Of a stretch of 58,586 nt of DNA, positions 25,236-53,500 are shown in pieces (position 1 is the first letter of the stretch; each line of letters starts with the position of its first letter). The stretch is from the IMG/VR virus record IMGVR_UViG_3300036770_003690, positions 1-58,586 of that record; one strand, written 5' to 3'. The position numbers and the translations under genes are program-made. The notes under the pieces were generated by a model. It made no database searches and had not been told where the DNA came from. It saw only the letters and a list, made by a program, of their open reading frames with translations. The stretch comes from a virus.

Positions 25236-28200
25236 TTACTCTCCTCCTAATGCTAGAATGAATGGGGTTAAGGTTGAGAACAAGCTCTTAGAATAAGATG
25301 TTCCAGAAATTGTTCCAGTATTTTGGTTAATAATCAATCCATCACCAATCTTGAAGTTACCTGACTGGTCAGTGCTTGTGTAAACTACTAGTCCACCATT
25401 TACACTGATTGTTTGATTTTCAGGTTTAGTAACTCCACCATTCTGTGGAAGAGCACCTTTAACATCAGTTCCAGCACCAATGAATTCAAATGAAATACCA
25501 GCAGCAAGAATTCTACTTTGCTTGTAGAAGTAAACAGGCATTCCTTCAGTAACTTCATATGGAATTTGAGTATCAAATGTTACTGTTGAAACTCCAGCAG
25601 ATGGTAAAGTTGCTTTAGAAACCGTATAGTATACAGGTGCCATTTCAACTGTCACTCTTGCTTGAGTTCCACCAGAAGGAGGGGCAGAGATTGAAACGGT
25701 AGGAGGAACAATAAATCCTCTACCACTAGACACAACCTCAACAGAAACAACTCTACCGTCTTCAACGGTTGCAATTGCCTGAGCAGGAACTCCCCAATCT
25801 GTAGTTGGACCTCCAAGTGTAACTTCTGGAGTATCTGTATATCCACTTCCCCCATTAGTAACATTAATCTTATTCACCTGATAATATAGTTTATCAAATA
25901 CTGCAACTTGTCCATCAAATGGTCTTACTGCATTAATCTGAACAGTTCCACCAGAAGTATAATAGTGTGGGAATGGACCAGCACCAACGTTAGCAGTAAA
26001 GAAAGTGCTTGCTGCTGATACTGCTACAGTTGTAGCAGTTCCTGCGATAATTGCTTCAGTTGCAATTCCAATCAAGCTGTCAATAGTATCTTGAACATTC
26101 TGACATCCTTCTGGGGAATTATTTGATCCGGTAAGAGGATCTTCAACAAGTGAGAAGTTCTTATTATTCAGTTGATTATTAATAGCAAGTTGCATATAAT
26201 CGCCAGAAGCACGGAATGCTGTTACAGTCTCTGCTTCCTCACCAACAAGAGCATCGGAGAGTGGATTTCCAAAAGCATCAAAGTAGTAGTTAGTTGCCTC
26301 AATTGTATTTGCGTTGGTGAAGTTTTCTAAGTCCTTAGAAACCGCATCAACAAAGTATCCAATATCTCTTCTACACTTAGCTTCTTGGTCAAGGAATCCA
26401 CCAACATTAACAGTGACACCATCAAGTGCTGTGAGAGTTCCAATTCCGATTACAGAAGTAATAATTCCAACTCTGTTATCAACAAAGTCCTGAACATCCT
26501 GACAAGTTTCAGCATTTCCAGATCTATTATAAACAATGTCTGGAGTAGAAGCACCGTAAACAGCAGGACCAAATGATAATGTTAGATCCTTGGCATAAAG
26601 TTGATTTGTCAATGCTCTCTTCATATAATCTCCAGCAGCATCAAATGCTGTTACAGATTCTGCTCTTTCAACATCAAGACCTGGGGCAATAGGATTACCT
26701 TGCTCATCAAAGTATTGCTTAGCAAACTCAATTGAGTAAGTATTTCCACCAACAAATACATCAGTAGAAACAGCATCAACAAGATAACCAATGTCTCTAG
26801 CACACTTATAACCACCTGGGGAACTGGTAGTTCCTAACCCAACTAAATCCCCTGCCGTAGTTCCAAATCCAACAGTCTGATTGAATTCCCCAAGAGTCTG
26901 ATAGAAGAATCCACTGCTGATTCCGATTGAACCATCATAAAGGGCAGCAGTATTTCCTGCTCCGATTACGGTAGTAATAATTCCAACGAGAGTTTCAATG
27001 TTGCCCTGAACATCTAGGCAAGTTTCAGCATTGCCAGAGGCATTGTAAGTTACAATTCCAACTCCACCAAAACTAGAAGGACCAAATGAGAGAGTTAGGT
27101 CTTTTCTGTAAAGTTGGTTAGTAATTGCCTTCTGCATCAATCCAGTAGAAGATTCAAATGCAGTTAGTGAAGGTAGTTCCTCACCAGCCAGACCACCTCT
27201 GATTGGGGTTCCATCGGCATTGTAATACTGCTCTGAGAATCCTCTAGAGTAGACATTACCACCAGTAAATACGTCGGTAGAAACGGCATCTACGAGGAAT
27301 CCAAGGTCTCTAGCACACTTATAACCACCTGGGTTCTCAGTAGTTCCAATACCAGAAGTTCTATCGAAGATTCCAGTATTATACTCTAGACCTGAGAATG
27401 AAGCAGTGCTTCCTGCTCCAAGAGCAACTGTTACGATACCAACCAAGTTGTCAACTTCGTCCTGAACATCTAAACAAGATGCTTCATTTCCTGAAGGAAG
27501 AACAGGAATGGAAGTACCAGCACCAGCATAATATGCCTTACCTGAAGAAATGCCAACATCCTTTCTGTAAAGTTGATTAGTAAGAGCATCCTTCATAAAT
27601 TCACCAGCACCTACCAATCCAATAACTGTTGGATGTACTTCATCCCCATCAATGTAAATTGCTCCACTGTTATCAAAGTACTGGAGGGTATATTCTTGAG
27701 AATACTTATTGCCAGCAATAAAGATATCGGTTGATACTGCGTCGATGAAGAAACCTACGTCTCTAGCACACTTATAACCACCTGGAGTATTTGTAGTTCC
27801 AAGACCAACAGATTGTGAGAAGTAACCATCTGTGACTGAAGGTAGAGAAGCAGTGCTTCCTGCTCCAAGAGCAACGGTTACGATACCAGCAAGAGTATCA
27901 AGATTGTCTTGAATATCAAGGCAAGCAGTTGGGTCTGTATTTGGAACGTCAGAACCGACGTTGTAGTAGGTTCCACCGATTGAAATTGTTAAGTCTGAAT
28001 ATGCGGCACCAACCAGTGAGTTGGTAATCGCATTCTTCATATAACCAGTTGCTGCCTCAAATACGAAGATTGATTCATTGATTTCACCATCAAGACCATT
28101 TGTGATTAATGAACCACCTTCAAAGTATTGGAATGTGAACTCTCTTGAATAGGTATTTCCACCAGTAAGAGCATCGAGTGAAATAGCATCAATGAAGAAT

Positions 28201-31200
28201 GCTGTGTCCCTCTTACACTTATCCATTACAGCAGCAAAGTCGAACGCAGAGAATGCTGGTTCATTAACAGCATCGGTAAATGCTAGTCCAACAATAACAT
28301 CCTTATTGAGTTGAATTAGACGATAAGCATCATAGAATCTTGATCTTTCGTTCTCTTCCGCATCACCTGGGAAGAAGAATGTATCATAAGCATCATATCC
28401 AACAGCAATCTCACCGATAGATCTATCAATGATTTCTTGTCTGTTCTGCTGAATGAGACGGTATGAATCGAAGAATCTATACTGCTCATCATCTCTTTCA
28501 TCAAATCCTGGGTTGATTGTTGGTAGTGAAGTTGTAGTTCCAAGACCAACAGCAACGGTAGCAATTCCTACGAGGTTCTCAATGAGTGCCTGAACATCAG
28601 CACAGGATTCTGGGCTTCTGTTATCATCAGTGAGATAATCTGGAGAAATTGTAAGATCTTGTGAATTGAGTTGGTTAGTTACTGCTGCTCTGGAGAGATC
28701 TCCAAAAGCAGTAAATGCGGTAACTGATTCTGATTCTTCACCGAGGAGACCATCAGAAATTGGGTTTCCAAGGGCATCGAAGTAGCTTAGAGCAAATCCT
28801 ACGGTATTCTTGTTTCCACCAGTCCATACGTCCTCTGCGAGGGCAAAGTGGAGGAATCCAAGGTCTCTAGCACACTTGAATCCACCTGGGGAACTGGTAG
28901 TTCCGATACCTGACTGGTTAAAGTATCCTTCATTTACAGCAGGTAGATTTGTGGTAGTTCCAAGTCCAACAGCAGTTGTGGTAATACCGATGAGGTTATC
29001 AATTTCATCCTGAACATCTTGGCAAGCATTAGGATTACCAGAGAGTAGAACAGGTTCTGAAGTTCCTACACCAGCATAAACTGCTGTACCTGAAGAAATG
29101 CCTACATCCTTACGGTTTAGTTGGTTAGTAATTGCCTTCTTAGCATAATCTCCAGCAGCACCGAATGCTACAACTGAAGGTGCTTCTTCTCCAAGTAATC
29201 CTTCAGCAGTTGGATTACCATTCTCATCAAAGTAGAAGAGTGAGAAGTCAACTGAGTAACTGTTACCACCAGTAAATACGTCAGTAGCAACGGCATCTAC
29301 CAAGTATCCAAGGTCTCTAGCACACTTAACACCACCTGGGGAAGTTGTTCCGAGACTGATTGTATTGAGAGTTAACTTGGTGAATGGATCAGTGTTGATT
29401 ACGAAGTTACCAAGATTGAGTGAAGAACCTGATGGTAGAGTTGTAGTGGTTCCAAGACCAACAGCAACGGTTACGATACCAACAAGGTTTTCAATGTTTG
29501 CCTGAACGTCGATACAAGCATTAGGATTACCAGACTTAAGAACTGGGATTGAAGTTCCTGCTCCAGCATATGATGCCTTACCTGAAGAAATTCCTACGTC
29601 CTTAGCATTGAGTTGGTTAGTTACTGCTCTCTGCATATAATCAGCAGCAGCAGAGAAGGCAACAAGTGATTGTGCCTCTTCACCAACTAATCCATTAGAG
29701 ATTGGAATACCAGCACCATCGAAGTATTGGAGAACAAACTCTCTTGCATAGCTGTTACCACCAACGAATACGTCAGTAGATACGGCATCTACAAGGAAAC
29801 CAATGTCTCTAGCACACTTAAATCCCCCTGGGGAACTTGTAGTTCCAACACCAGATTGTGCGAAGTATCCAAGGTTAATATCTGAAGTTACATCTCCAGC
29901 AGTGGCCTCAGTTCCAAGTCCGACAACTGAAGTAACAATACCGATAAGTGTATCAATGTTATCTTGAACGTCAAGGCAAGCAGCAGCATTTCCTGAAGGA
30001 AGAACTGGGATTGAAGATCCTGCTCCAGCATATGATGCCTTACCTGAAGAAATACCTACATCCTTAACATAAAGTTGGTTGGTAATCGCATCCTTCATAT
30101 ACTCACCAGCAGCAACGAATGCTGTGAATGAAGGACCTTCTTCTTCATAAAGACCGTCAGAGATTGGATTACCATTCTCATCAAAGTACTGAAGAATGAA
30201 TTCTCTTGAGTAGTTATTACCACCAGTGAATACGTCAGTAGAAACAGCATCTACAAGGAAACCTACGTCTCTAGCACACTTAATTCCACCTGGAGAATAA
30301 GTGCTAACTCCAAGAGTAAGATTAAACTCACCTACATCAAGAGTATTTGTTTGTGATGGTAGGAATCCGATAGTTCCGAGTCCAACAGCAACAGTAACGA
30401 TACCTACAAGAGTATCAATACTATCCTGAACATCAAGGCAAGCAGAGGCATTTCCTGATCTGAGAACTGGAACTGAAGTACCAGCACCAGCATAGTATGC
30501 CTTACCTGAAGAAATGCCAACATCCTTATTAAAGAGTTGGTTGGTAATCGCATCCTTCATATATTCACCAGCACTTTCAAATGCTACAATAGAAGGACCT
30601 TCTTCACCGAGAAGACCATTAATAATTGGAGCAGCATTTTCAAAATACTGAAGTGCAAATCCATCTGAATAGTAGTTACCTGCGGTAAACAAGTCAGTTG
30701 AAATTGCATCAATGAAGAATCCAAGATCTCTTGCACACTTAAATCCACCTGGGGAACTAGTAGTTCCAACACCAGCAATTGATGGACTAAAGTAACCATA
30801 ATTAATTTCTAAAGTTACATCAGCAGCAGTAGCAGTGGTTCCAAGACCAACAACTGAAGTAACAATTCCAATCAGAGTATCAATGTTATCTTGAACGTCA
30901 AGGCAAGAAGCAGCATTACCTGAAGGAAGAACAGCAATGGAAGTACCAGCACCAGCATAGTATGCCTTACCTGAAGAAATACCTACATCTTTGGTGTTAA
31001 GTTGGTTGGTAATCGCATCCTTCATTAATTCACCAGCAGTGATGAATCCATAAAGGGATTGAAGTTCTTCTTCATAAAGACCTTCAAGAATTGGTTCACC
31101 AGTTCCATCATCAAAGTATTCAAGAATAAATTCTCTTGAATATACATTACCACCAGTAAATATGTCAGTGGAAACAGAGTCTACAAGGAAACCAATGTCT

Positions 31201-46335: not shown

Positions 46336-46673
46336 ACTCTACCAAAATCATCCTCAAAACGTTCGATATCTTCCTCTAAACAAAAATCACCGTGCTGAAC
46401 TTCAATCAAAGTAATCCCTGTTGATCCACCTTTTAATCTGTGCTTTACAGTCTTTGGAATAAAAACAAAATCTCCAGTTTGGATTTCTCTAGTATTTTCC
46501 CCAACTTCTACCAAACCATCACCTTGAACAACTGTCCAGTATTCATTGCGATGATTATGCAGTTGTAAAGAAAATCTAGAATCTGGGTTTAAATAAATTC
46601 TTTTAACTTTATATTGGGGAGTCTCTGAAAATGATTCTTCATACCAACCCCAAGGTCTTTCAATTCGTTGCAT
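46332..46673 (-). CDS. Mannose-6-phosphate isomerase type II-like cupin
   Basis: A 113-residue single cupin domain like the C-terminal isomerase half of ManC: 'RPWGWYEE' at 5-12, '[20 protein letters not shown]' with metal-binding His-x-His and Glu near 37-44, and '[16 protein letters not shown]' with the late His. It could make mannose 6-phosphate from fructose 6-phosphate, the start of GDP-mannose synthesis. The guanylyltransferase half is absent, so the host must supply that step. First gene of the right glycan string. Confidence 0.8.
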
Positions 46674-46707
46674 ATGTAATCAATAATATCCATATATGTA
46701 TCATAAC

Positions 46708-46739
46708 AAAAAAGATGGGCATTGTAAACCCATCTTTTT
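46708..46739 (-). terminator. Rho-independent terminator after the 46800-47012 gene
   Basis: AAAAAGATGGG and CCCATCTTTTT form an 11-bp stem. The flanking A and T runs make it usable on both strands. It separates the small-gene unit from the glycan unit that starts at 46673. No clear sigma70 promoter for that unit was seen after it. Confidence 0.8.
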
Positions 46740-46799
46740 CAGCATATTCAGGTCAACTTGACTCCACCAGTTCTGTTTAAGTCCATCCGTGACTAATCA

Positions 46800-47012
46800 T
46801 CAAACTTCAACTACTTCAAGATCCTCATAAAGATAATCAATTAGCATTTCGTAATCGTCTTCAGGATCACCTGAAAATACAACTCCATTTTGCTCATAAT
46901 AACGTTTTACTTTTTTGTAAAGTTTTGGATTTTTCACATCAAGGTAAAATTCTCCATTAGCAGCAGCACGAAGAGTATTTACGTCTTTTTTAAATTTTGA
47001 AGTAAGAGTCAT
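46800..47012 (-). CDS. Small hypothetical phage protein
   Basis: A 70-residue protein ('MTLTSKFKKDVNTLRAAANG', acidic C-terminus 'DYLYEDLEVVEV') of a kind common in T4-like cyanophages, function unknown. The start is supported by an AAGGAA Shine-Dalgarno directly before the ATG, and by a promoter at 47036-47064 that leaves a short leader. The terminator at 46708-46739 closes it as a single-gene unit. No motif points to a role. Confidence 0.7.
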   Translation of the reverse strand: MTLTSKFKKDVNTLRAAANGEFYLDVKNPKLYKKVKRYYEQNGVVFSGDPEDDYEMLIDYLYEDLEVVEV

Positions 47013-47035
47013 TTCCTTAATTGGTTTACCTGAAT

Positions 47036-47064
47036 AGTATAGGTCTTTGAGAGGTAAAAGTCAA
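47036..47064 (-). promoter_or_regulatory. Sigma70-type promoter of the 46800-47012 gene
   Basis: On the minus strand TTGACT (47059-47064), a 17-base spacer and TATACT (47036-47041). Start site expected near 47029, about 17 bases before the ATG. The -35 box lies ten bases downstream of the stop of the 47075-47260 gene. Confidence 0.75.
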
Positions 47065-47074
47065 GTGGTCCAGA

Positions 47075-47260
47075 TTAGCAACCGTCTTCGTGCTCTGTGT
47101 GAATGCGAATAATGTCATCGAGTTCTTCGCAATTATTACCACAAGGAACAAGAACTGCTGTTCCATACTCACCTTCAATCATAAATGACTCACCATTTTC
47201 TACTCTTTCAATAAGTTCATCAAAATATATTTGAAATTGCTCTACTGTAAAACTTTCCAT
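47075..47260 (-). CDS. Small Phd/YefM antitoxin-like protein
   Basis: A 61-residue protein whose first 40 residues ('FTVEQFQIYFDELIERVENG', 'SFMIEGEYGTAVLVPC') resemble the DNA-binding half of Phd/YefM antitoxins, where 'G-pv-I---g--vavLv' is typical. The C-terminus is acidic ('IRIHTEHEDGC'). No toxin gene lies beside it. A free antitoxin could neutralise a host toxin or act as a small regulator; this is inference. A late-type TATAAATT lies upstream. Function uncertain. Confidence 0.5.
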   Translation of the reverse strand: MESFTVEQFQIYFDELIERVENGESFMIEGEYGTAVLVPCGNNCEELDDIIRIHTEHEDGC

Positions 47261-47316
47261 TTATCAATTTTTCTAATAAGGTTTTAATAATTTATAAAAG
47301 TTTTGTTTTTAAAATA

Positions 47317-47390
47317 TCGGGCATAAAGGATTTGAACCTTTGACCTTCCCGCCCCAAACGGGACGCGCTACCAAACTGCGCTAATGCCCG
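47317..47390 (-). tRNA. tRNA-Pro(TGG), copy 1
   Basis: Cloverleaf with acceptor CGGGCAT, D arm GCGC/GCGC, anticodon loop TTTGGGG and T loop TTCAAAT. It reads CCN proline codons. Behind a promoter with a duplicated -10 region (47402-47450). A second Pro(TGG) gene is at 49627-49700. Confidence 0.9.
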
Positions 47391-47400
47391 GTATATTATA

Positions 47401-47440
47401 TATCATATCAAATGCTACATTATCATATCAAATGCTACAT
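47401..47440. repeat. Exact 20-base tandem duplication over a promoter
   Basis: Bases 47401-47420 and 47421-47440 are identical. Each copy carries an ATCATA block, which reads TATGAT on the minus strand, so the -10 box of the tRNA-Pro promoter is duplicated. Confidence 0.9.
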
Positions 47441-47450
47441 TTGATGTCAA
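47422..47450 (-). promoter_or_regulatory. Sigma70-type promoter of tRNA-Pro
   Basis: Minus-strand TTGACA (47445-47450), 17-base spacer, TATGAT (47422-47427). The duplicated second TATGAT at 47402-47407 would place a start near 47395, close to the tRNA 5' end at 47390, but has no good -35 box. Confidence 0.75.
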
Positions 47451-47641
47451 GTGCCATTGATAAACTTTTCATATTTATTTTGAACCTCAGAATCTACCTG
47501 ACTTAGGTTTCCCAAAGGAGGCATCCAATTTTCTTTGATTACATAATCAGCAAACCTATAAGAATAGGTTGATATTGGTATTCCTAATCTGCGAAGAGAA
47601 CTTAAAATAAATGCTCTTTGCTGAAGAATATTACTATCCAT
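47447..47641 (-). CDS. Small hypothetical phage protein
   Basis: A 64-residue unrecognised protein with a helical, basic N-terminal part ('QQRAFILSSLRRLGIPISTY') and an aromatic centre ('YVIKENWMPPLGN'). Its start overlaps the stop of the preceding small gene (ATGGATAG), so it is translated by coupling. Two-gene unit from the promoter near 47834. Function unknown. Confidence 0.6.
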   Translation of the reverse strand: MDSNILQQRAFILSSLRRLGIPISTYSYRFADYVIKENWMPPLGNLSQVDSEVQNKYEKFINGT

Positions 47642-47780
47642 TGCTTAAAAATTTATTCATAGGATCTTTTTTGGATTTTACAATTTCACAAGCTCTTTTG
47701 TAAAAGGCATTATCAAGATTTCCAGATTCTTCAAAAATTTGTTTTATTTTTACCCAGTTGGCGTAAGTATGATCGTCCAT
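47634..47780 (-). CDS. Very small phage protein (48 residues)
   Basis: ATG at 47780 opens a 48-residue frame ('MDDHTYANWVKIKQIFEESG', ending 'KKDPMNKFLSNG'). It overlaps the next gene by eight bases (ATGGATAG), which supports real translation. Short proteins with a 'YANWVKIK' start and a Lys-rich end are, from memory, common in T4-like cyanophages; function unknown. No Shine-Dalgarno is obvious. Confidence 0.65.
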   Translation of the reverse strand: MDDHTYANWVKIKQIFEESGNLDNAFYKRACEIVKSKKDPMNKFLSNG

Positions 47781-47810
47781 TGGGTTTTATTCGTAGATAT
47801 TATTATATAA

Positions 47811-47834
47811 TAAATCTTATATTTTCAGTGTCAA
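47811..47834 (-). promoter_or_regulatory. Probable sigma70-type promoter of two small genes
   Basis: Minus-strand TTGACA at 47829-47834. Downstream is an AT-rich -10 region in which TTATAT is 18 bases away and TATAAT 21 bases away, so the -10 box is uncertain. It precedes the ATG at 47780. Confidence 0.45.
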
Positions 47835-47893
47835 CAAAATATGTTCATTTTGTAACACTGTTGAAGAAATTATTAAATTAGTATCATATAAAA

Positions 47894-47976
47894 CGGAAAG
47901 AACAGGAATCGAACCTGCGAGGGTGTTATCCCCAGCCGCTTTCAAGGCGGTGTCCTCGACCAACCGGACTCTTTCC
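47894..47976 (-). tRNA. tRNA-Ser(TGA)
   Basis: Class II cloverleaf with long variable arm, acceptor GGAAAGA/TCTTTCC, anticodon loop CTTGAAA and T loop TTCGATT. Followed on the minus strand by TTTT. Stands apart from the main array. Confidence 0.9.
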
Positions 47977-47987
47977 AATAAAAGTCC

Positions 47988-48248
47988 TCAACGGACTTCA
48001 AAATCTAAACGACGAACTTTACGTTGTCTTCTTGCCTCCTGCCACATAATATCCTCATTTGTAAGAATATTATTTTTTTGTTTTTTATTTGGAGAGTTTA
48101 GCATGACTATTTGAGATAGGTCAAGTGCAGTAATGTTAGTGTTGTTTCTTATAGTTGCCATATTAGGACAACCACAAGAAACTGTTTTTGCTGGACGACC
48201 TTCTATTTCTTTATTGCAAGATTTACATCTGATTCGTAAATTTTCCAT
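47988..48248 (-). CDS. Small zinc-ribbon protein
   Basis: An 86-residue protein with 'CKSCNKEIEG' and 'KTVSCGCPN' (Cys-x2-Cys and Cys-x-Cys within the first 30 residues), fitting a small zinc ribbon. A basic C-terminal tail ('WQEARRQRKVRRLDFEVR') could bind nucleic acid. It lies between tRNA-Ser and tRNA-Asn. A minus-strand CTAAATAA lies upstream, suggesting late expression. Function unknown. Confidence 0.65.
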   Translation of the reverse strand: MENLRIRCKSCNKEIEGRPAKTVSCGCPNMATIRNNTNITALDLSQIVMLNSPNKKQKNNILTNEDIMWQEARRQRKVRRLDFEVR

Positions 48249-48279
48249 AATATTCTCATATTTTTCTAATTATTTAGAA

Positions 48280-48352
48280 CTGGGGTGGCAGGGATCGAAC
48301 CTGCGACCTAGATGTTAACAGCATCCCGCTACTACCGCTGAGCTACACCCCA
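48280..48352 (-). tRNA. tRNA-Asn(GTT)
   Basis: Cloverleaf with acceptor TGGGGTG/CACCCCA, anticodon loop CTGTTAA and T loop TTCGATC. First gene of the dense array on its left side. Confidence 0.92.
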
Positions 48353-48356
48353 TTGG

Positions 48357-48428
48357 GAGCGAAGGGTGGAATTGAACCACCTACCCGAAGCTTATGAGAC
48401 TTCTGTGCAACCGTTACACTTCTTCGCA
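48357..48428 (-). tRNA. tRNA-Met(CAT), copy 1
   Basis: Anticodon arm GAAGT/GCTTC with loop CTCATAA. The 1:72 pair is T:T and T8 is A, which is unusual. The initiator's three G:C pairs in the anticodon stem are missing, so it is not a clear initiator. Could also be a CAT tRNA modified to read ATA (Ile). Confidence 0.8.
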
Positions 48429-48436
48429 GTGAGACA

Positions 48437-48465
48437 ATCATAAAGTATATATACCAGATTGTCAA
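48437..48465 (-). promoter_or_regulatory. Sigma70-type promoter of tRNA-Met copy 1
   Basis: TTGACA (48460-48465), 17-base spacer, TATGAT (48437-48442). The expected start near 48430 is within two bases of the tRNA 5' end (48428), so little or no leader would need removal. Confidence 0.75.
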
Positions 48466-48466
48466 G

Positions 48467-48538
48467 TGGGAGATACTGGAATCGAACCAGTGACTGCTTG
48501 CTTGTAAGGCAAGAACTCTACCGCTGAGTTAATCTCCC
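48467..48538 (-). tRNA. tRNA-Val(TAC)
   Basis: Cloverleaf with acceptor GGGAGAT/ATCTCCC, anticodon loop CTTACAA and T loop TTCGATT. Its 3' end abuts the -35 box of the next promoter. Confidence 0.93.
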
Positions 48539-48562
48539 GATAGGTGATCTCTCAACCATCTT

Positions 48563-48591
48563 ATAATACCCTATAAGATTTAATTTGTCAA
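48563..48591 (-). promoter_or_regulatory. Sigma70-type promoter of tRNA-Val
   Basis: TTGACA (48586-48591), 17-base spacer, TATTAT (48563-48568). Start expected near 48556, about 18 bases before tRNA-Val. Confidence 0.7.
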
Positions 48592-48609
48592 GTCCTAAGA
48601 TGAAAATGG

Positions 48610-48684
48610 CACTCTCTGCAGGATTTGAACCTGCGACTTCTTGGTTCGTAGCCAAGCACTCTATCCAGACTGAGTTAAGAGAGC
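48610..48684 (-). tRNA. tRNA-Arg(ACG)
   Basis: Cloverleaf with acceptor GCTCTCT/AGAGAGT, anticodon loop CTACGAA and T loop TTCAAAT. A34 is normally edited to inosine by the host TadA and reads CGT/CGC/CGA. Confidence 0.92.
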
Positions 48685-48687
48685 ACA

Positions 48688-48761
48688 TGCCCGTGATAGG
48701 AGTCGAACCTACACTGTATGGATTCTAAGTCCACCCTCTCTACCAATTGGAGTACACGGGC
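48688..48761 (-). tRNA. tRNA with anticodon TAG (Leu), short variable arm
   Basis: Acceptor GCCCGTG/CACGGGC, anticodon stem GTGGA/TCCAT with loop CTTAGAA, T loop TTCGACT. The anticodon TAG reads CTA (Leu). The variable region is only about five bases, whereas bacterial Leu tRNAs have a long arm, so charging by leucyl-tRNA synthetase is uncertain. Confidence 0.75.
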
Positions 48762-48766
48762 ATAGG

Positions 48767-48838
48767 CGAAGGGCCAGAGACTTGAACTCTGATCTTTGGT
48801 TTTGGAGACCAAGATGCTACCAATTGCACCAACCCAAC
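48767..48838 (-). tRNA. tRNA-Trp(CCA) with mismatched acceptor
   Basis: Anticodon arm TTGGT/ACCAA with loop CTCCAAA, T loop TTCAAGT. The acceptor stem GTTGGGT/GCCCTTC has T:T mismatches at 2:71 and 3:70, so the gene may be decaying. Confidence 0.8.
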
Positions 48839-48844
48839 ATTTGG

Positions 48845-48918
48845 TGTCCGTGAGAGGATTTGAACCTCCAACACCTACCCCCTCAAGGTAGTGCCTCTTC
48901 CAGTTGGGCTACACGGAC
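48845..48918 (-). tRNA. tRNA with anticodon GAG (Leu), short variable arm
   Basis: Acceptor GTCCGTG/CACGGAC, anticodon arm CTACC/GGTAG with loop TTGAGGG (GAG, reads CTC/CTT), T loop TTCAAAT. Like the TAG gene it lacks the long variable arm of Leu tRNAs. The acceptors of the two genes are nearly identical, so they are probably duplicates of one ancestor. Confidence 0.75.
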
Positions 48919-48921
48919 TGG

Positions 48922-48992
48922 CTGGGGAACTAGGAGTCGAACCTAGATAAACACGGTCAAAGCGTGGTGTCCTGCCTTTAGACGATTCCCCA
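48922..48992 (-). tRNA. tRNA-Gln(TTG)
   Basis: Acceptor TGGGGAA/TTCCCCA, D arm with GTCT as in Gln/Glu tRNAs, anticodon loop CTTTGAC, T loop TTCGACT. Confidence 0.9.
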
Positions 48993-48996
48993 TTGG

Positions 48997-49068
48997 AGTT
49001 TCAGGTCGGAATCGAACCGACGATTAGAAGTTTTGCAGACTTCCGCCTTACCACTTGGCTACTGAAAC
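48997..49068 (-). tRNA. tRNA-Cys(GCA)
   Basis: Acceptor GTTTCAG/CTGAAAC, anticodon arm GAAGT/ACTTC with loop CTGCAAA, T loop TTCGATT, discriminator T as usual for Cys. Confidence 0.92.
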
Positions 49069-49071
49069 AAG

Positions 49072-49143
49072 AGCCCTCAATCGGATTTGAACCAACGACC
49101 TACTCATTACTAGTGAGTTGCTCTACCACTGAGCTATAAGGGC
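49072..49143 (-). tRNA. tRNA-Thr(AGT)
   Basis: Acceptor GCCCTTA/TGAGGGC, anticodon arm ACTCA/TGAGT with loop CTAGTAA. A34 outside Arg(ACG) is rare in bacteria. It would read ACT if unmodified. Confidence 0.82.
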
Positions 49144-49145
49144 GG

Positions 49146-49217
49146 GGTGACGTGCGGGAATCGAACCCGCATACCTGGATTCACAAACCAGTTCCTTAAC
49201 CATTAGGATAACGACAC
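49146..49217 (-). tRNA. tRNA-His(GTG)
   Basis: Acceptor GTGTCGT/ACGTCAC with one T:T mismatch, anticodon loop TTGTGAA, T loop TTCGATT, discriminator C. No encoded G at -1 is visible (base T), unlike most bacterial His tRNAs. Confidence 0.82.
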
Positions 49218-49219
49218 AG

Positions 49220-49291
49220 TGGCTGTGGGTGGATTTGAACCACCGACGACTTCCTTATGAGAGAAGTGTTCTACCCCTGAACTACACAACC
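49220..49291 (-). tRNA. tRNA-Met(CAT), copy 2
   Basis: Acceptor GGTTGTG/CACAGCC fully paired, anticodon arm CTTCT/GGAAG with loop CTCATAA. No initiator features (1:72 paired). Likely elongator Met, or Ile if C34 is modified. Confidence 0.85.
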
Positions 49292-49294
49292 TGG

Positions 49295-49377
49295 CGGAAG
49301 ATGTTGGGATCGAACCAACGGAGGTTTTACCCTCACGGTTTAGCAAACCGCTGCATTAACCACTCTGCCAATCTTCC
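49295..49377 (-). tRNA. tRNA-Ser(GCT)
   Basis: Class II with long variable arm, acceptor GGAAGAT/ATCTTCC, anticodon loop TTGCTAA, T loop TTCGATC. Confidence 0.92.
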
Positions 49378-49381
49378 AAGT

Positions 49382-49471
49382 AGGGAGAAGGTGGAATCGA
49401 ACCACCATTGCCAAGGGACGGAATCGAACCGTCTCTGATACCGTCGTACCCACCGTCCAAGGTGCTCTCCC
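49382..49471 (-). ncRNA. Chimeric tRNA-like element with two T arms
   Basis: The ends pair as an acceptor stem (GGGAGAG with TTCTCCC). Two complete T arms lie in tandem inside: GACGG-TTCGATT-CCGTC and GGTGG-TTCGATT-CCACC. A CACC/GGTG hairpin stands where a D arm would be. Where an anticodon arm should be there is only a 5-bp stem with a 4-base loop (GGTAC/GTATC). No normal anticodon is present, so it probably does not decode. It looks like a recombinant of two tRNA genes. Confidence 0.6.
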
Positions 49472-49474
49472 AAG

Positions 49475-49546
49475 TGGAACCGACAAGATTTGAACTTGTG
49501 ACCGCTCGGTTATCAGCCGAGTGCTCTACCACTGAGCTACGGTTCC
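49475..49546 (-). tRNA. tRNA-Ile(GAT)
   Basis: Acceptor GGAACCG/CGGTTCC, anticodon arm CTCGG/CCGAG with loop CTGATAA, T loop TTCAAAT. Confidence 0.93.
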
Positions 49547-49549
49547 AAG

Positions 49550-49623
49550 AGGGAACAATCGGATTTGAACCGATAACACCTTGATCTTCAATCAAGTGCT
49601 CTACCAATTGGAGCTATGTTCCC
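49550..49623 (-). tRNA. tRNA-Phe(GAA)
   Basis: Acceptor GGGAACA/TGTTCCC, anticodon arm CTTGA/TCAAG with loop TTGAAGA, T loop TTCAAAT. Discriminator reads T instead of the usual A. Confidence 0.9.
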
Positions 49624-49626
49624 GAA

Positions 49627-49700
49627 TCTGAGAGGCAGGATTTGAACCTGCGACCTGAGCGTTCCAAACACCCAGCTCTACCAAACTGAGCTACTCCCAG
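49627..49700 (-). tRNA. tRNA-Pro(TGG), copy 2
   Basis: Acceptor CTGGGAG/CTCTCAG, anticodon arm GGGTG/CGCTC with loop TTTGGAA, T loop TTCAAAT. Same anticodon as 47317-47390 but different body. Confidence 0.88.
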
Positions 49701-49705
49701 ATGAT

Positions 49706-49760
49706 GGAAGGGGTATCCCACAAGGTGATGATTTAAAATCATCGGGCAGAAATCCCTTCC
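49706..49760 (+). ncRNA. Truncated tRNA-Leu(TAA)-like relic, plus strand
   Basis: On the plus strand GGAAGGG pairs with CCCTTCC as a perfect acceptor. An anticodon arm GATGA-TTTAAAA-TCATC carries TAA. No D arm is seen, and a T-arm-like GGG-CAGAAAT-CCC competes with the acceptor for the same CCC. At 55 bases it is too short for a normal tRNA. Read on the minus strand the loop is TTTTAAA (TTA). It lies in an otherwise minus-strand array; its function is unclear. Confidence 0.4.
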
Positions 49761-49827
49761 CAATTCCAGTTATTACTACAACATTCTTCTGCAAACTGGC
49801 AACCTCTGAAGAATGCGTGGGATTTCT
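49748..49827. repeat. Nested inverted repeats inside the tRNA array
   Basis: AGAAATCCC (49748-49756) pairs with GGGATTTCT (49819-49827), and within it ATTCTTC (49783-49789) pairs with GAAGAAT (49808-49814). The outer left arm overlaps the T-like part of the tRNA-Leu relic, so the two folds exclude each other. Confidence 0.6.
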
Positions 49828-49832
49828 CCCAA

Positions 49833-49903
49833 TTGCTCCGACTGGAATCGAACCAGCGACCAACCCCTTCGACGGAGCTGCTCTACCACTGAGCTACAGA
49901 GCG
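49833..49903 (-). tRNA. tRNA-like gene with aberrant anticodon loop
   Basis: D arm, T arm (GCTGG-TTCGATT-CCAGT) and most of the acceptor (CGCTCTG/CGGAGCA) are normal, with C1:A72 unpaired. The anticodon stem pairs best around an 8-base loop CGTCGAAG or a 6-base loop GTCGAA. A forced 7-base loop gives TCG with G33, or CGA with a mismatch. It may be a frameshifting tRNA or a decaying gene. Confidence 0.6.
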
Positions 49904-49955
49904 GTTCAGTTTATCAATACTGCCCACACACAAAACTGAATAAGTGTAGGGACGA

Positions 49956-50027
49956 CGACCCTAACGGGATTTGAACCCGTGATAATACCGTGACAGGGTA
50001 TCGTGATGACCACTTCACTATAGGGTC
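49956..50027 (-). tRNA. tRNA-Asp(GTC)
   Basis: Acceptor GACCCTA/TAGGGTC, anticodon arm ATACC/GGTAT with loop CTGTCAC, T loop TTCAAAT, discriminator G. Confidence 0.93.
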
Positions 50028-50031
50028 AAGG

Positions 50032-50114
50032 TGGGAGGAACAGGATTTGAACCTGTGAAGGACAGAGCCGTCTGATTTACAGTCAGATTCCTTTAACCAC
50101 TCGGAAATCCTCCC
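50032..50114 (-). tRNA. tRNA-Tyr(GTA)
   Basis: Class II with long variable arm, acceptor GGGAGGA/TCCTCCC, anticodon arm TCTGA/TCAGA with loop CTGTAAA. Confidence 0.93.
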
Positions 50115-50118
50115 ACGA

Positions 50119-50193
50119 TGGGACATCTGGGATTTGAACCCAGGACTAACCGATTAAAAGTCGGATACTCTGACCTGACTGAGTTAATGTCCC
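50119..50193 (-). tRNA. tRNA-Lys(TTT)
   Basis: Acceptor GGGACAT/ATGTCCC, anticodon loop CTTTTAA, T loop TTCAAAT. First tRNA after the non-coding block in transcription order. Confidence 0.92.
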
Positions 50194-50550
50194 ATTAAAA
50201 ATGTAAAGTTATTATGTGTGGAAAATATTCAGTTGTCGATGTTCGGTGTGGTCTCTCGACCACTTGATTAGAATACCACCGTTTGGTCTCTTGGGGAGTA
50301 GGTGGTGGACACTTGTGAAACCGTCACAAGGCAAAGAAAAAGGGGAGGAAACTTTGAGTTTCTCTCCCCTGTGTGTTTTGCTTTTATGGTTGGTCTTACA
50401 TTTGACCTACCATACACGCAAACAGGGGAGTACCCTCAATATGCCAATAACGGCAATCAAGGAGACTAAACTGTTTTGTGGGCATTTGGTAGGTCATTGT
50501 TCTAATCAATTATGTGTTTATTTATAAGACTTTTTTTTCAAAAAGTCAAG
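50194..50550. other. Hairpin-rich non-coding block inside the tRNA array
   Basis: No convincing gene in 357 bases; a plus-strand open frame here has no coding support. Several inverted repeats occur. GTGGTC/GACCAC is at 50248-50263, and CCACC/GGTGG at 50276-50280 and 50301-50305. CTTGTGA/TCACAAG is at 50312-50330, the terminator at 50333-50370, and GACCTACCA/TGGTAGGTC spans about 50405-50495. It may encode a structured RNA or serve as a transcript boundary. Confidence 0.55.
50333..50370 (-). terminator. Rho-independent terminator inside the tRNA array
   Basis: On the minus strand AGGGGAG-AGAAAC pairs with GTTTC-CTCCCCT (12 bp, one bulge, 5-base loop), followed by TTTTCTTT. It separates the Gly-Thr group of tRNAs (50551-51259) from the rest. 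Confidence 0.75.
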
Positions 50551-50622
50551 AGCGGGGTATCGGAATCGAACCGACGACATCTAACTTGGAAGGATAGCGT
50601 TCTACCGCTGAACTAACCCCGC
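50551..50622 (-). tRNA. tRNA-Gly(TCC)
   Basis: Acceptor GCGGGGT/ACCCCGC, anticodon arm CTATC/GTTAG (one mismatch) with loop CTTCCAA, T loop TTCGATT. Confidence 0.9.
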
Positions 50623-50632
50623 ATTTAAGACA

Positions 50633-50661
50633 ATCTTACATTATATAGTAGAGATTGTCAA
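50633..50661 (-). promoter_or_regulatory. Sigma70-type promoter of tRNA-Gly
   Basis: TTGACA (50656-50661), 17-base spacer, TAAGAT (50633-50638). Start expected near 50626, four bases before the tRNA. Confidence 0.7.
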
Positions 50662-50662
50662 G

Positions 50663-50733
50663 TGGAGAATAGGAGAATCGAACTCCTAATAAGTGCTTGC
50701 AAAGCACCCGTTATACCGTTTAACTAATTCCCC
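50663..50733 (-). tRNA. tRNA-Ala(TGC)
   Basis: Acceptor GGGGAAT/ATTCTCC, anticodon arm GGTGC/GCACT with loop TTTGCAA, T loop TTCGATT. Confidence 0.9.
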
Positions 50734-50736
50734 TGG

Positions 50737-50810
50737 CGTCTCAGGAGGGACTTGAACCCCCGACCAACTGCTTAGAAGGCAGATGCTCTATCCAACTGAG
50801 CTACTGAGAC
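50737..50810 (-). tRNA. tRNA-Arg(TCT)
   Basis: Acceptor GTCTCAG/CTGAGAC, anticodon loop CTTCTAA, T loop TTCAAGT. Reads AGA/AGG, codons favoured by AT-rich phage genes. Confidence 0.92.
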
Positions 50811-50827
50811 AAGAGATGACTTTGACA

Positions 50828-50856
50828 ATCATAAGTTATTTAACCTAGATTGTCAA
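50828..50856 (-). promoter_or_regulatory. Sigma70-type promoter of tRNA-Arg(TCT)
   Basis: TTGACA (50851-50856), 17-base spacer, TATGAT (50828-50833). Start expected near 50821, about ten bases before the tRNA. Confidence 0.75.
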
Positions 50857-50857
50857 G

Positions 50858-50942
50858 TAGGAACGGAGAGACTTGAACTCTCACGGGTTATTCGCCCAAC
50901 GGATTTTAAGTCCGGTGTGTCTACCAATTCCACCACGCTCCC
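50858..50942 (-). tRNA. tRNA-Leu(TAA)
   Basis: Class II with long variable arm, acceptor GGGAGCG/CGTTCCT, anticodon loop CTTAAAA, T loop TTCAAGT. No group I intron is present, unlike many cyanobacterial genes for this tRNA. Confidence 0.92.
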
Positions 50943-50965
50943 ATAAAAAGACCAAAAATGGTCAG

Positions 50966-51039
50966 TGGAAATGCCGGGGCTTGAACCCGGAACCCCAGAC
51001 TTATAAGGTCTGTGCTCTGACCAATTGAGCTACATTTCC
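50966..51039 (-). tRNA. tRNA-Ile(TAT)
   Basis: Acceptor GGAAATG/CATTTCC, anticodon arm CAGAC/GTCTG with loop CTTATAA. TAT reads ATA directly; most bacteria use a modified CAT tRNA, so this gene is unusual. Confidence 0.9.
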
Positions 51040-51050
51040 GAAGTGAGACA

Positions 51051-51079
51051 ATCATAAGGCATAACCCTGAGATTGTCAA
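51051..51079 (-). promoter_or_regulatory. Sigma70-type promoter of tRNA-Ile(TAT)
   Basis: TTGACA (51074-51079), 17-base spacer, TATGAT (51051-51056). Start expected within a few bases of the tRNA 5' end at 51039. Confidence 0.75.
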
Positions 51080-51080
51080 G

Positions 51081-51160
51081 TGCCCCCAGTCGGATTTGAA
51101 CCGACAAGCCGAAGCGGTTGATTTTGAGTCAACTGTGTTTACCAGTTTCACCACAGGGGC
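51081..51160 (-). tRNA. tRNA-Leu(CAA)
   Basis: Class II, acceptor GCCCCTG/TGGGGGC, anticodon arm GTTGA/TCAAC with loop CTCAAAA, T loop TTCAAAT. A TTGACA lies upstream at 51183-51188 but without a good -10 box. Confidence 0.9.
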
Positions 51161-51187
51161 AATAAAGACAATTATAATCAATTGTCA

Positions 51188-51259
51188 AGCCCCCGACTGG
51201 ATTTGAACCAGCAACCTTCTCATTACAAGTGAGATGCACTACCGTTGTGCTACAGAGGC
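51188..51259 (-). tRNA. tRNA-Thr(TGT)
   Basis: Acceptor GCCTCTG/CGGGGGC, anticodon arm TCTCA/TGAGA with loop CTTGTAA, T loop TTCAAAT. First tRNA of the array in transcription order. Confidence 0.92.
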
Positions 51260-51274
51260 GTATTTTCAAGATTC

Positions 51275-51295
51275 AAGTGATCCTTCCGATCACTT
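51275..51295 (-). promoter_or_regulatory. Hairpin between the last small gene and the tRNA array
   Basis: AAGTGATC pairs with GATCACTT (8 bp, 5-base loop). The stop codon of the 51290-51793 gene lies in its arm and no T run follows. It is more likely an RNA processing or stability element than a terminator. Confidence 0.45.
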
Positions 51296-51793
51296 ATTTA
51301 GAATACCACTCTCAAGGTCAAGAGTCAAGTCCTTTGTACCAGATTCAGAAGTGGCAGGACAATCTGAAACCCAAGGAGAACATAATCTCATTTCTCCCCC
51401 AAGTGATTTACACTCATCAGAATAACATACAGAACTATCTATATTGTTTTCCAAATAACGAGGTGGAGATATTCTAACAATTCCATCATCTCCTGTCAAT
51501 CTTTCATAACTACCGATTGCCTCATCAACTTCTCTACGAACTTTGAATTCAAGTAATTTTGGGTCATTATTAATTCTTTCGTTGAGTTGCCTATCAATCT
51601 CATTCAAAACATTATTCTCATCAGGTAAGTCAAACTTAATCCCCTTCCTGAGTTCGTTGTAGAACTTCAAAAGGTCTTCCTGACTGATACCACACCTTAC
51701 GGTAAGAAAAGCAATCCCAGAGGCAATTAGAGCAGCAATTAGAGACCTTTTAGGAGACAGTCTGAAGCTGACTAAGAATTCAGGTATCCTCAT
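51290..51793 (-). CDS. Hypothetical membrane-anchored protein
   Basis: A 167-residue unrecognised protein. One membrane segment lies at about residues 18-35 ('SLIAALIASGIAFLTV'), with a basic N-terminus inside. A helical, charged middle follows ('INDPKLLEF-VRREVDEAIG', abbreviated) and then a Cys-rich end ('SSVCYSDECKSLGGEMRLCS') that may form disulfides outside the membrane. It overlaps the upstream gene by 14 bases. It shares the theme 'P-LLEFRVRREVDEAI' with 'DELLRFRIDRTIEKAL' in that gene. Confidence 0.6.
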   Translation of the reverse strand: MRIPEFLVSFRLSPKRSLIAALIASGIAFLTVRCGISQEDLLKFYNELRKGIKFDLPDENNVLNEIDRQLNERINNDPKLLEFKVRREVDEAIGSYERLTGDDGIVRISPPRYLENNIDSSVCYSDECKSLGGEMRLCSPWVSDCPATSESGTKDLTLDLESGILNK

Positions 51794-52064
51794 AATCCCT
51801 AAGTGCTTTCTCTATTGTTCTATCTATACGAAAACGAAGTAATTCGTCATCTTTGATAATATAATCGTTTAGAATATCAACACCAAACTTTAATTGTATT
51901 TCATCAATTAGATTGAAAAGAAACTTACGGTCTACGAATGGAAGTAGGGATACAACATCTACAGTTCCTTTCAGAAGAAATCCAAGTCTTACATAATGAA
52001 AGATGGTTCTTTTTTCTGGTCCGTGTTTAAATTCAAAAATATTAAACTTAGATTTCTTGGTCAT
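51780..52064 (-). CDS. Small hypothetical protein
   Basis: A 94-residue unrecognised protein with a basic start ('MTKKSKFNIFEFKHGPEKRT'), a hydrophobic centre ('LGFLLKGTVDVVSLLPFVDR') and an end 'DDELLRFRIDRTIEKALRDY'. The end resembles segments in both neighbours ('NPSEIVDNAIEEYLND' and 'LLEFKVRREVDEAIGSY'), so the three genes may share a short interaction helix. Overlaps both neighbours, so the three are co-translated. Confidence 0.6.
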   Translation of the reverse strand: MTKKSKFNIFEFKHGPEKRTIFHYVRLGFLLKGTVDVVSLLPFVDRKFLFNLIDEIQLKFGVDILNDYIIKDDELLRFRIDRTIEKALRDYEDT

Positions 52065-52338
52065 TTAAATACTCCTCGATAGCATTATCAACTATTTCAG
52101 AAGGATTAATTTTCTTAGCAGGTTCTCTTAATTTTTTTGTATCAAATGTAATGGTAGGTGTAATATCACCAGTTTCTTCCAACTTAAGTTTCATTCCCAA
52201 AGGAGTTCCTTTTGGTTGAATGTTAACCTGATTGTGTGCTTCTAATTTAATCTCACCTAACTCAGTATTCACTTTTAAATACTGAGACTTAGCAACTAAA
52301 TCAATAATCTCTTCTGGTTCTTCTGGTAGATTACTCAT
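52048..52338 (-). CDS. Small hypothetical protein
   Basis: A 96-residue unrecognised acidic protein with a beta-rich middle ('YLKVNTELGEIKLEAHNQVN') and a C-terminal helix 'EIVDNAIEEYLNDQE'. It overlaps the nuclease gene upstream by eight bases and the next gene by 17. It is part of a four-gene unit from the promoter at 52780-52808. Confidence 0.6.
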   Translation of the reverse strand: MSNLPEEPEEIIDLVAKSQYLKVNTELGEIKLEAHNQVNIQPKGTPLGMKLKLEETGDITPTITFDTKKLREPAKKINPSEIVDNAIEEYLNDQEI

Positions 52339-52720
52339 TTAACGGTGCGAGTTCTGATAGGTCTTGTTCTTTTGATGGGTCATATGCCCAAGCATACTGA
52401 TTTGCGAATAAGTATTCACTTGCGGTTAAATTATGTCCTTGAACATAAACCTCACCTAATACTCTTCCATACTTTTCAGACTTATTAGGATTTTGAGTTG
52501 CTACAATTACTTCTGTTCCAGAGTTGATATACTCTTGTAGCTTGTCTTTTGCTCTTAATCCATATTTCTTTTCTTCTTCATTTAGTGTTCTTAATGAAGG
52601 AGCATTAATGTTACTTAAACGAATAAATTGTTTTAGAAAGATATTAAATCCTAAGTCAATTGATGCTTCAATAGTATCACCATCAATTACTCTTATATCT
52701 TTAAGATTATATGTATACAT
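52331..52720 (-). CDS. Staphylococcal-nuclease-type (SNase) nuclease
   Basis: A 129-residue SNase-fold protein with active-site parts intact: 'VIDGDTIEASIDLG' (Asp pair, Thr and Glu near 12-18), 'LKQFIRLSNINAPSL' with the Arg near 34, and 'KSEKYGRVLGEVYV' with the second catalytic Arg near 85. It should cut DNA or RNA using calcium. No signal peptide, so it acts in the cell, perhaps in host genome breakdown. First gene of its unit, with its own promoter. A degenerate paralogue lies at 2015-2383. Confidence 0.82.
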   Translation of the reverse strand: MYTYNLKDIRVIDGDTIEASIDLGFNIFLKQFIRLSNINAPSLRTLNEEEKKYGLRAKDKLQEYINSGTEVIVATQNPNKSEKYGRVLGEVYVQGHNLTASEYLFANQYAWAYDPSKEQDLSELAPLNE

Positions 52721-52779
52721 AAGACTTTAGCTTCTTATATATCTATAATATTATATTACTTATCATCGGTCACAAACCT

Positions 52780-52808
52780 ATTATACACAGTTTTGATACT
52801 TGTGTCAA
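52780..52808 (-). promoter_or_regulatory. Sigma70-type promoter of the SNase unit
   Basis: Minus-strand TTGACA (52803-52808), 17-base spacer, TATAAT (52780-52785): a consensus match. The -35 box overlaps the end of the upstream gene (stop at 52805). Confidence 0.85.
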
Positions 52809-53446
52809 CCGTATGCTTTTCTGGCAGTAGAAGAACTTGGAAGACCTTTAGATGCCCTTCTTACAGCAGCTTTTGTATGTCTTTCTGTTGATGGTTGAAG
52901 TCCTTGTTTTTGCGGATCTGTTCCAGTTTCTTTAGTATCCTTGTCTAAAGTTCTTCTCATTTCAGTTCCAACTCTACCAATTACATTTGCTCTAGTTGCT
53001 GTTCCTCTTCCCCCAACAATTCCTTTAGAAACTTCAGATTTTTTTTTCTGAAGTAATTCAGTATATTTTGATTTTGCTTTTTGTTTTGGACCAAAATCCC
53101 AAGGAACATATGCTTCAACAATCTCTTCTCTCCACTCTTCACTCATATTAACCATAATGACTTCTGCTGCTTCTGGAGTTTCGGCATAACCTTCATCAAG
53201 AAGGTGTGAGAGAATGAGGTCGTAGAGGTCGTAACTTTCATTTTTTTCTTTTTTTTGAAGAGGTCTATCTTGTTCTGATCTTCCCCACGCATCAACTTTT
53301 GGTTGTCCTTTTATTCCCCTACCACCTCTTTTAGTTGGTCTATTAACATATTTACCATCTCTAATTGATCCCTCTACGGGACGTTGCTGATTTTCAACAA
53401 CTTGCAAATATGCTTCTTGAAGATTGTGAAGTTCTTGTGCATCCAT
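52805..53446 (-). CDS. Conserved cyanophage hypothetical protein
   Basis: A 213-residue protein, basic at both ends, with a central acidic helical block ('YDLILSHLLDEGYAETPEAA', 'VIMVNMSEEWREEIVEAYVP'). This resembles helical segments of small proteins found in many marine T4-like phages; function unknown. I set the start at ATG 53446 rather than 53494, because the upstream one would overlap the terminator at 53476-53500 and because a late-type TATAAATA lies at 53466-53473. The C-terminal tail 'RRASKGLPSSSTARKAYG' is basic and may bind nucleic acid. Confidence 0.65.
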   Translation of the reverse strand: MDAQELHNLQEAYLQVVENQQRPVEGSIRDGKYVNRPTKRGGRGIKGQPKVDAWGRSEQDRPLQKKEKNESYDLYDLILSHLLDEGYAETPEAAEVIMVNMSEEWREEIVEAYVPWDFGPKQKAKSKYTELLQKKKSEVSKGIVGGRGTATRANVIGRVGTEMRRTLDKDTKETGTDPQKQGLQPSTERHTKAAVRRASKGLPSSSTARKAYG

Positions 53447-53465
53447 TTTACAATTACTTTTTAGG

Positions 53466-53473
53466 TATTTATA
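53466..53473 (-). promoter_or_regulatory. Candidate late promoter (TATAAATA)
   Basis: A perfect minus-strand match to the T4 late octamer, 20 bases before the ATG at 53446 and just past the T run of the rlpA terminator. Confidence 0.6.
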
Positions 53474-53475
53474 AA

Positions 53476-53500
53476 AAAAGGAGTGCCGAAGCACTCCTTA
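53476..53500 (-). terminator. Rho-independent terminator after rlpA
   Basis: AAGGAGTGC and GCACTCCTT form a 9-bp stem with the stable TTCG tetraloop, followed by a T run on the minus strand. Confidence 0.9.

Follow-up and report, generated by a model that had tools for sequence, protein, structure and literature searches.

How single tRNAs may be dosed from one compact array of phage tRNA genes is the question raised by a 58,586-nucleotide stretch of virus DNA, IMG/VR record IMGVR_UViG_3300036770_003690, positions 1 to 58,586 (the window). On its minus strand lies a tRNA array in which five promoter-like elements occupy spacers between the genes. In the reading favored here, which is given a probability of about 0.62, the array would be a read-through tRNA operon punctuated by spacer hairpins, about five or six of the spacers being shaped into host-type (sigma70/SigA) promoters as well. 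The array and the five elements are as follows:

47317..51259, minus strand: tRNA array, with 29 ARAGORN calls and one probable tRNA-Ser
48437..48465, minus strand: putative promoter TTGACA-17-TATGAT of tRNA-Met; with 48433-48436 it forms the hairpin GACAATC...GATTGTC (RNA fold -7.9 kcal/mol, z -2.4)
48563..48591, minus strand: putative promoter TTGACA-17-TATTAT of tRNA-Val; not a GACAATC repeat; the -10 is overlapped by a hairpin, ATCTTATA/TATAAGAT, that is flush with no tRNA
50633..50661, minus strand: putative promoter TTGACA-17-TAAGAT of tRNA-Gly; hairpin extends to 50629 (-11.6 kcal/mol, z -5.7)
50828..50856, minus strand: putative promoter TTGACA-17-TATGAT of tRNA-Arg(tct); hairpin extends to 50822 (-14.5 kcal/mol, z -5.3)
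51051..51079, minus strand: putative promoter TTGACA-17-TATGAT of tRNA-Ile(tat); hairpin extends to 51047 (-13.7 kcal/mol, z -4.4)

An original prediction had proposed these five as TTGACA-17-TA(T/A)(G/A/T)AT, and each is an exact match, on the strand of the tRNAs. The window has nine instances of the strict pattern, every one on the minus strand, against 0.14 expected and a maximum of two in any of 100 shuffles. It is found in 5 of the 10 tRNA spacers longer than 20 nt; in 20,000 shuffles of the spacers the mean was 0.0012 and the maximum 1. The related sites proposed along with the five held up in part: those at 47422, 52780 and 54728 are exact, but those at 47036 (TTGACT-17-TATACT) and 866 (TTGACA-17-TATGCT) are weaker and fall below the strict consensus. 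An exact match at 40051, inside an open reading frame, is probably due to chance.

Four of the five elements are also an inverted repeat, TTGACAATC-N17-GATTGTC (chance expectation 0.03), which the earlier reading overlooked; the 5' arm in these four spacers, just past the preceding tRNA, therefore contains the -35, and the 3' arm contains the -10. The RNA folding energies of the four spacers are -7.9 to -14.5 kcal/mol (z -2.4 to -5.7). RNA folding found no comparable structure in the 48563 element, whose whole-spacer fold is not significant (z -0.5), or in the protein-gene promoters at 52780 and 54728. Chance as the origin of the elements is ruled out by the pattern counts, the inverted-repeat counts and the spacer shuffles.

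The same arrangement recurs in relatives. A scan of IMG/VR for TTGACAATC-N17-GATTGTC returned at least 120 loci, and 123 of the 136 matches listed adjoin tRNAs. Among these matches the element typically begins 0-1 nt past the tRNA end called by ARAGORN, about 3 nt after the discriminator base of the upstream tRNA, and ends 4-11 nt before the next tRNA; phage S-SKS1 carries it too, and S-PM2 has a related element in its tRNA spacers. When the spacing between the arms is varied, tRNA-flanked inverted repeats make up 0/86 of the matches listed at 12-15 nt, 5/30 at 16, 108/128 at 17, 7/13 at 18 and 1/89 at 19-22. A second IMG/VR scan was anchored on the tRNA T-loop and imposed no inverted repeat. 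With TTGACA abutting a tRNA, TANNAT followed at 15, 16, 17, 18 and 19 nt in 1, 15, 168, 19 and 9 cases among the matches listed, a tally that covers all loci then collected, some of them fetched through the inverted repeat. The spacing of 17 (±1) is the rule of a predicted sigma70-type promoter, and the hexamers of the elements, TTGACA and a TATAAT-like one, follow it. In whole records the exact repeat is present in 1-2 copies per phage in 13 of 19 and is missing from the other six, which rules out a dispersed genome-wide repeat.

The base at the expected start, about 7 nt past the -10, is a purine in 126/142 cases among relatives and an A in 107/142; control promoters elsewhere are also about 80% purine there. 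In the window the predicted start base is A for Met, Gly, Arg and Ile, and G for Val. With the peak at 17 obtained where no repeat was imposed, and the purine at the start, the promoter assignment is well supported by sequence comparison. For a start at the 7th base past the -10, the predicted leaders are 2 nt for Met, 4 for Gly, 5 for Ile, 11 for Arg and 18 for Val. The claim that the start falls within about two bases of the mature end for both tRNA-Met and tRNA-Ile(tat) is thus true for Met only; a start at the tRNA 5' end would hold in a rough sense for Gly and Ile too, at 4-5 nt. The companion claim that some units need little or no 5' processing is plausible for Met, and short leaders (2-5 nt) are frequent in relatives, where the distance from -10 to tRNA peaks at 9-11 nt, corresponding to leaders of 2-4 nt.

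The hairpins are not confined to promoter spacers. In a survey of 1,311 inter-tRNA gaps, drawn from the phage loci fetched by the motif scans, gaps are either short, about 400 of them measuring 0-5 nt, or 15 nt and longer, with just 15 distinct gaps at 6-14 nt. The loci are motif-selected, which biases the counts among the matches listed, neighboring loci share ancestry so that pair counts are not independent, and ARAGORN ends vary by 1-3 nt. With or without a promoter, 91-95% of the gaps of 15-60 nt form more stable folds than shuffled sequences (z below -1.5), and the distance from tRNA end to stem is mostly 0-2 nt. In promoterless spacers the RNA of the tRNA strand is more stable than its complement in 73 cases against 32 (p 2e-6), a bias that points to the RNA level. 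A T-rich tail follows 5 of 153 non-redundant spacer hairpins and none of the four GACAATC elements of the window; an intrinsic terminator as the general role of the hairpins is ruled out by the former count. The rule was not seen in E. coli tRNA operons, where 3 of 13 spacers fold, or in the spacers of T4 (1-10 nt) and those examined of T5 (mostly 5-9 nt). GTDB genomes searched with the T-loop-anchored pattern gave 22 true tRNA-abutting cases among the matches listed, 36% of them folded. A general bacterial feature is ruled out by the GTDB cases, by E. coli and by the T4 and T5 spacers, mostly too short. There are about even odds for a punctuation rule of cyanophage tRNA arrays, by which neighbors either abut (0-5 nt) or are parted by a hairpin directly past the tRNA 3' end; promoters would have evolved repeatedly inside such hairpins by sharing bases, and the hairpin would be an RNA signal or insulator for tRNA maturation, of a kind undescribed before.

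Folding can be separated from promoter spacing in the promoter-bearing spacers. Using the T-loop-scan loci only, tRNA-abutting promoters fold at -4 kcal/mol or below in 69% of 49 non-redundant cases (mean z -2.9); in the control, the promoter pattern elsewhere in the same loci, 25% of 154 do so (z -0.5). Sorted by neighborhood, 16/19 elements fold where tRNAs stand on both sides, 15/30 where the only tRNA is upstream, 9/29 where the only one is downstream and 20/127 where there is none on either side. Compensatory changes among 56 distinct elements fill 47 cells against 24.3 ± 3.7 when shuffled (reached in 0/500 shuffles), and one inner pair shows six standard pair types. The 56 were picked by their arms, so the covariation evidence is carried by the inner pairs and by pair 9-27. 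Inner arms re-dealt among elements pair worse than their own (2.8 against 3.8 bp). Position 9, the third base past the -35, covaries with position 4 of the -10 in unbiased loci (4 C-G, 11 T-A, 2 T-G; p 0.006), TATGAT mostly accompanying AATC, and TATAAT accompanying AATT. Some relatives use other hairpin registers, with GACAG...CTGTC before the -10, CAAACTT...AAGTTTG between the hexamers, or GACAAGA...TCTTGTC; where the register has shifted, TTGACA is kept and so is a TANNAT box at a distance of 17-19 nt. The stem of promoter elements mostly starts at N73+4, directly past the would-be CCA end, and the TAT of the -10 is conserved although it lies largely outside the stem. Spacing and folding are, in these comparisons, two separately visible constraints, and about 33 bases appear to serve as both promoter and hairpin.

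Several observations weigh against this reading. The 48563 element has no flush hairpin. The difference between 15/30 after-tRNA-only and 9/29 before-tRNA-only elements is not significant (p 0.19), so a hairpin that belongs to the upstream tRNA is not fully told apart from one that goes with tRNA promoters in general. In promoter-bearing spacers the tRNA-strand RNA and its complement are the more stable equally often (21 and 21), which leaves room for a palindrome acting at the DNA level in these spacers. Finally, many of the loci were fetched using the inverted repeat itself.

Further spacers of the array, and the site upstream of tRNA-Pro, carry related features:

50521..50549, minus strand: candidate sixth composite element, TTGACT-17-TATAAA, with an 8-bp hairpin GACTTTTT-GAAA-AAAAAGTC flush 3' of tRNA-Gly
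50943..50964, minus strand: terminator-like spacer hairpin GACCA-TTTT-TGGTC followed by TTTTTAT in the Ile(tat)/Leu(taa) gap; z -3.6, no usable promoter
51161..51187 (repeat 51167-51186), minus strand: short spacer hairpin GACAATT-GATTAT-AATTGTC in the Thr(tgt)/Leu(caa) gap; z -3.2, no usable -35/-10 spacing
47422..47450, minus strand: putative promoter TTGACA-17-TATGAT 5' of tRNA-Pro, with no upstream tRNA adjoining and a tandem repeat, GTAGCATTTGATATGATA, next to it

The sixth element, also overlooked at first, has a pattern that occurs once in the window; one was also present in 4 of 100 shuffles. Its -10 (TATAAA) runs on as TATAAATA (50513-50549, minus strand), the late-promoter motif of T4-like phages, and an early/late double promoter is possible at this site. 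The tandem repeat beside the tRNA-Pro promoter (47402-47450, minus strand) carries two TATGAT boxes. An Rfam scan of 46500-53500 found no family other than tRNA above its gathering score and no known RNA family outside the tRNAs, which rules out a known family as the identity of the spacer hairpins.

The array had been described as not one operon but many short units. Internal promoters are predicted in 5 of the 28 gaps (6 with 50521), but none lies among 16 consecutive tRNA genes, Lys to Arg-acg, and the hairpins argue for co-transcription. A hairpin upstream of a start is made solely in read-through RNA, and the conserved RNA hairpins can be of use only where transcription enters the spacers from upstream; nested, read-through units are therefore indicated. 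The view that promoter and tRNA move as one cassette fared similarly. Among similar 17-nt spacers the downstream isotype alone is shared in 367 pairs and the upstream alone in 10, so the promoter goes with the downstream tRNA, and the neighbor on the upstream side changes. Identity of the downstream tRNA is the same with similar (0.74) as with dissimilar (0.75) spacers, however, and identical spacers precede Gly tRNAs of 52-97% identity; spacers and tRNA alleles are unlinked, and cassette mobility at the allele level was not seen. Nor are the flanks near-identical, as had been claimed, since the inner spacers agree at just 5-8 of 14 positions. The isotype linkage would fit descent with turnover of the upstream neighbor as well as it fits mobility. 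Loci L032, L104, L133 and others have identical 17-nt promoter spacers before tRNA-Gly genes that are just 52-70% identical, the spacer there being better conserved than the tRNA it is predicted to drive.

The window is, by sequence likeness, a fragment of a Kyanoviridae-like cyanophage, because the records closest to its flank are the Synechococcus phages S-SRM01, DSL-LC03, S-PM2 and S-SKS1, and nrdA/nrdB adjoin the array. Cyanomyoviruses are without alt, modA and modB, and their early genes are thought to be read by unmodified host polymerase (PMC2984593), which is consistent with consensus host-type promoters. Host RNA polymerase would initiate at the elements, probably in the early phase of infection, and its start would be an A about 7 nt past the -10, or a G for Val. 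As consensus, spacing and the +1 base suggest, the products would be tRNA precursors with short leaders, trimmed by RNase P. In transcripts from upstream promoters the spacer would instead fold into a hairpin about 3 nt past the discriminator N73, where CCA would end; this fold is supported by covariation. The hairpin may keep the AU-rich spacer from pairing with neighboring tRNAs and mark the tRNA 3' end for processing. The promoter would stay with the downstream tRNA and the hairpin would obey the rule of the spacer it occupies, as the statistics indicate, and the internal promoters would raise the dose of the Met, Val, Gly, Arg and Ile tRNAs or uncouple it from the operon.

Other explanations account for parts of the same evidence. 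The elements could be composites of terminator and promoter, like the promoter-early stem-loops (PeSLs) of T4-like phages, the hairpin ending the upstream transcript and the promoter restarting it, so that each tRNA group is a separate unit. T4-like phage PeSLs consist of a sigma70-like early promoter linked with a stem-loop, as a passage of PMC4503421 describes, the spacer at 50943-50964 is terminator-like with a T tract, and in T5 the promoter P14a comes after a strong hairpin. This explanation is nonetheless unlikely, given the scarcity of T-rich tails noted above, both in the survey and in the four GACAATC elements, and given that Leu(taa), the gene behind the sole terminator-like hairpin, has no promoter of its own. 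Leaderless synthesis, with promoters set for a start at tRNA +1 so that RNase P is unneeded, would suit the 2-nt Met leader and the 9-11 nt peak in relatives, but it is very hard to reconcile with predicted leaders that are mostly 2-5 nt and in some cases 11-18 nt, and with an array in which most tRNAs have no promoter at all.

A DNA operator is an improbable alternative to the hairpin-punctuated operon. The palindrome over -35 and -10 would then be bound by a repressor or activator, from phage or host, that sets the timing of tRNA expression. The outer arms of the palindrome, GACAATC/GATTGTC, are indeed strongly conserved and overlap both hexamers in spacers that fold without strand bias. Yet the arms vary in compensating fashion, from GACAATC/GATTGTC to GACAATT/AATTGTC, the inner arms are free to vary and still remain paired, relatives differ in the register of the repeat, unlike what a fixed operator would show, and promoterless spacers obey the hairpin rule too. 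The converse possibility, that the hairpins alone are functional as processing signals or folding insulators and a favored hairpin sequence yields the promoter hexamers incidentally, draws on the fact that nearly all long spacers have hairpins, mostly without a promoter. It is quite improbable, since the spacing is fixed at 17 ± 1 though a hairpin loop could vary, the TAT of the -10 is conserved mostly outside the stem, and promoter spacing is retained where the hairpin register changes.

The proposed read-through operon, with promoters built into some of its spacer hairpins, points to a way in which phages carrying 20-30 tRNAs might dose single tRNAs from one compact array. Its rule for tRNA spacers, to abut or to form a hairpin, can be tested directly, and the pattern can be searched for in any tRNA-rich phage. 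The 33 or so bases that would double as promoter and folded RNA, where one base of the -10 covaries with one of the spacer, illustrate clearly how codes can overlap in a small genome.

Other features of the array and window were noted in passing. A probable tRNA-Ser(TGA) with a long variable arm (47894-47977, minus strand) was missed by ARAGORN; Rfam calls it tRNA-Sec just under the gathering score (42.9 against 47 bits). An odd tRNA-like RNA at 49380-49473 (minus strand), called Ser(cga), has an acceptor and T arm, an extra hairpin with a GACG loop and a second T-loop-like arm (GACGGTTCGATTCCGTC). Its layout is shared with S-CREM1 (L010) and with loci L025, L053 and L073, with compensating stem changes (GGTAC/GTATC versus AGCAC/GTGTT). 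The tRNA at 49833-49903 (minus strand), for which ARAGORN gives the anticodon as '???', cg, has longer, structured spacers on its two sides, 131 and 50 nt in length. Very long open reading frames occupy 10676-22351 (3891 codons) and 25236-34013 (2925 codons), both on the minus strand.

Leaderless tRNA promoters at a near-fixed distance from tRNA +1 occur in Nanoarchaeum equitans. The likeness lies in that near-fixed distance; here, the promoter is of the bacterial sigma type, predicted leaders are mostly 2-5 nt and only some tRNAs have such a promoter. Host-type promoters inside or before phage tRNA clusters have precedents. Early promoters 5' of the tRNA genes of T4-like phages are known (PMC1524935), and T5 has annotated promoters P11 and P13-P15 in its tRNA region; the T5 promoters differ in not being palindromic over -35 and -10, and neither the T5 spacers examined nor those of T4 follow the hairpin rule. 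In halovirus HF2, short repeated intergenic elements carry promoters (PMC8707807), but these are archaeal TATA-type promoters and not tRNA spacer hairpins. A literature search, with most subscription journals outside its reach, found no description of promoter-hairpin tRNA spacers. The nearest named kind is the PeSL, which in the work of Arbiol 2010 and Comeau 2014 reportedly sets promoter and terminator stem-loop side by side between protein genes. The elements share with PeSLs of T4-like myoviruses an early host-type (sigma70-like) promoter associated with a stem-loop, a combination that is repeated between genes of T4-related phages; here, however, the hexamers lie within the hairpin arms, the hairpin has no T tract and the whole is fused to tRNA 3' ends. 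PeSLs are sparse in cyanophage S-PM2 (PMC4503421), and a passage of the same source presents them as thought to drive gene shuffling. The elements of the window thus appear partly PeSL-like in action and are not classed as PeSLs, because the terminator feature was looked for and found in none of the four GACAATC elements and in 5 of the 153 spacer hairpins.

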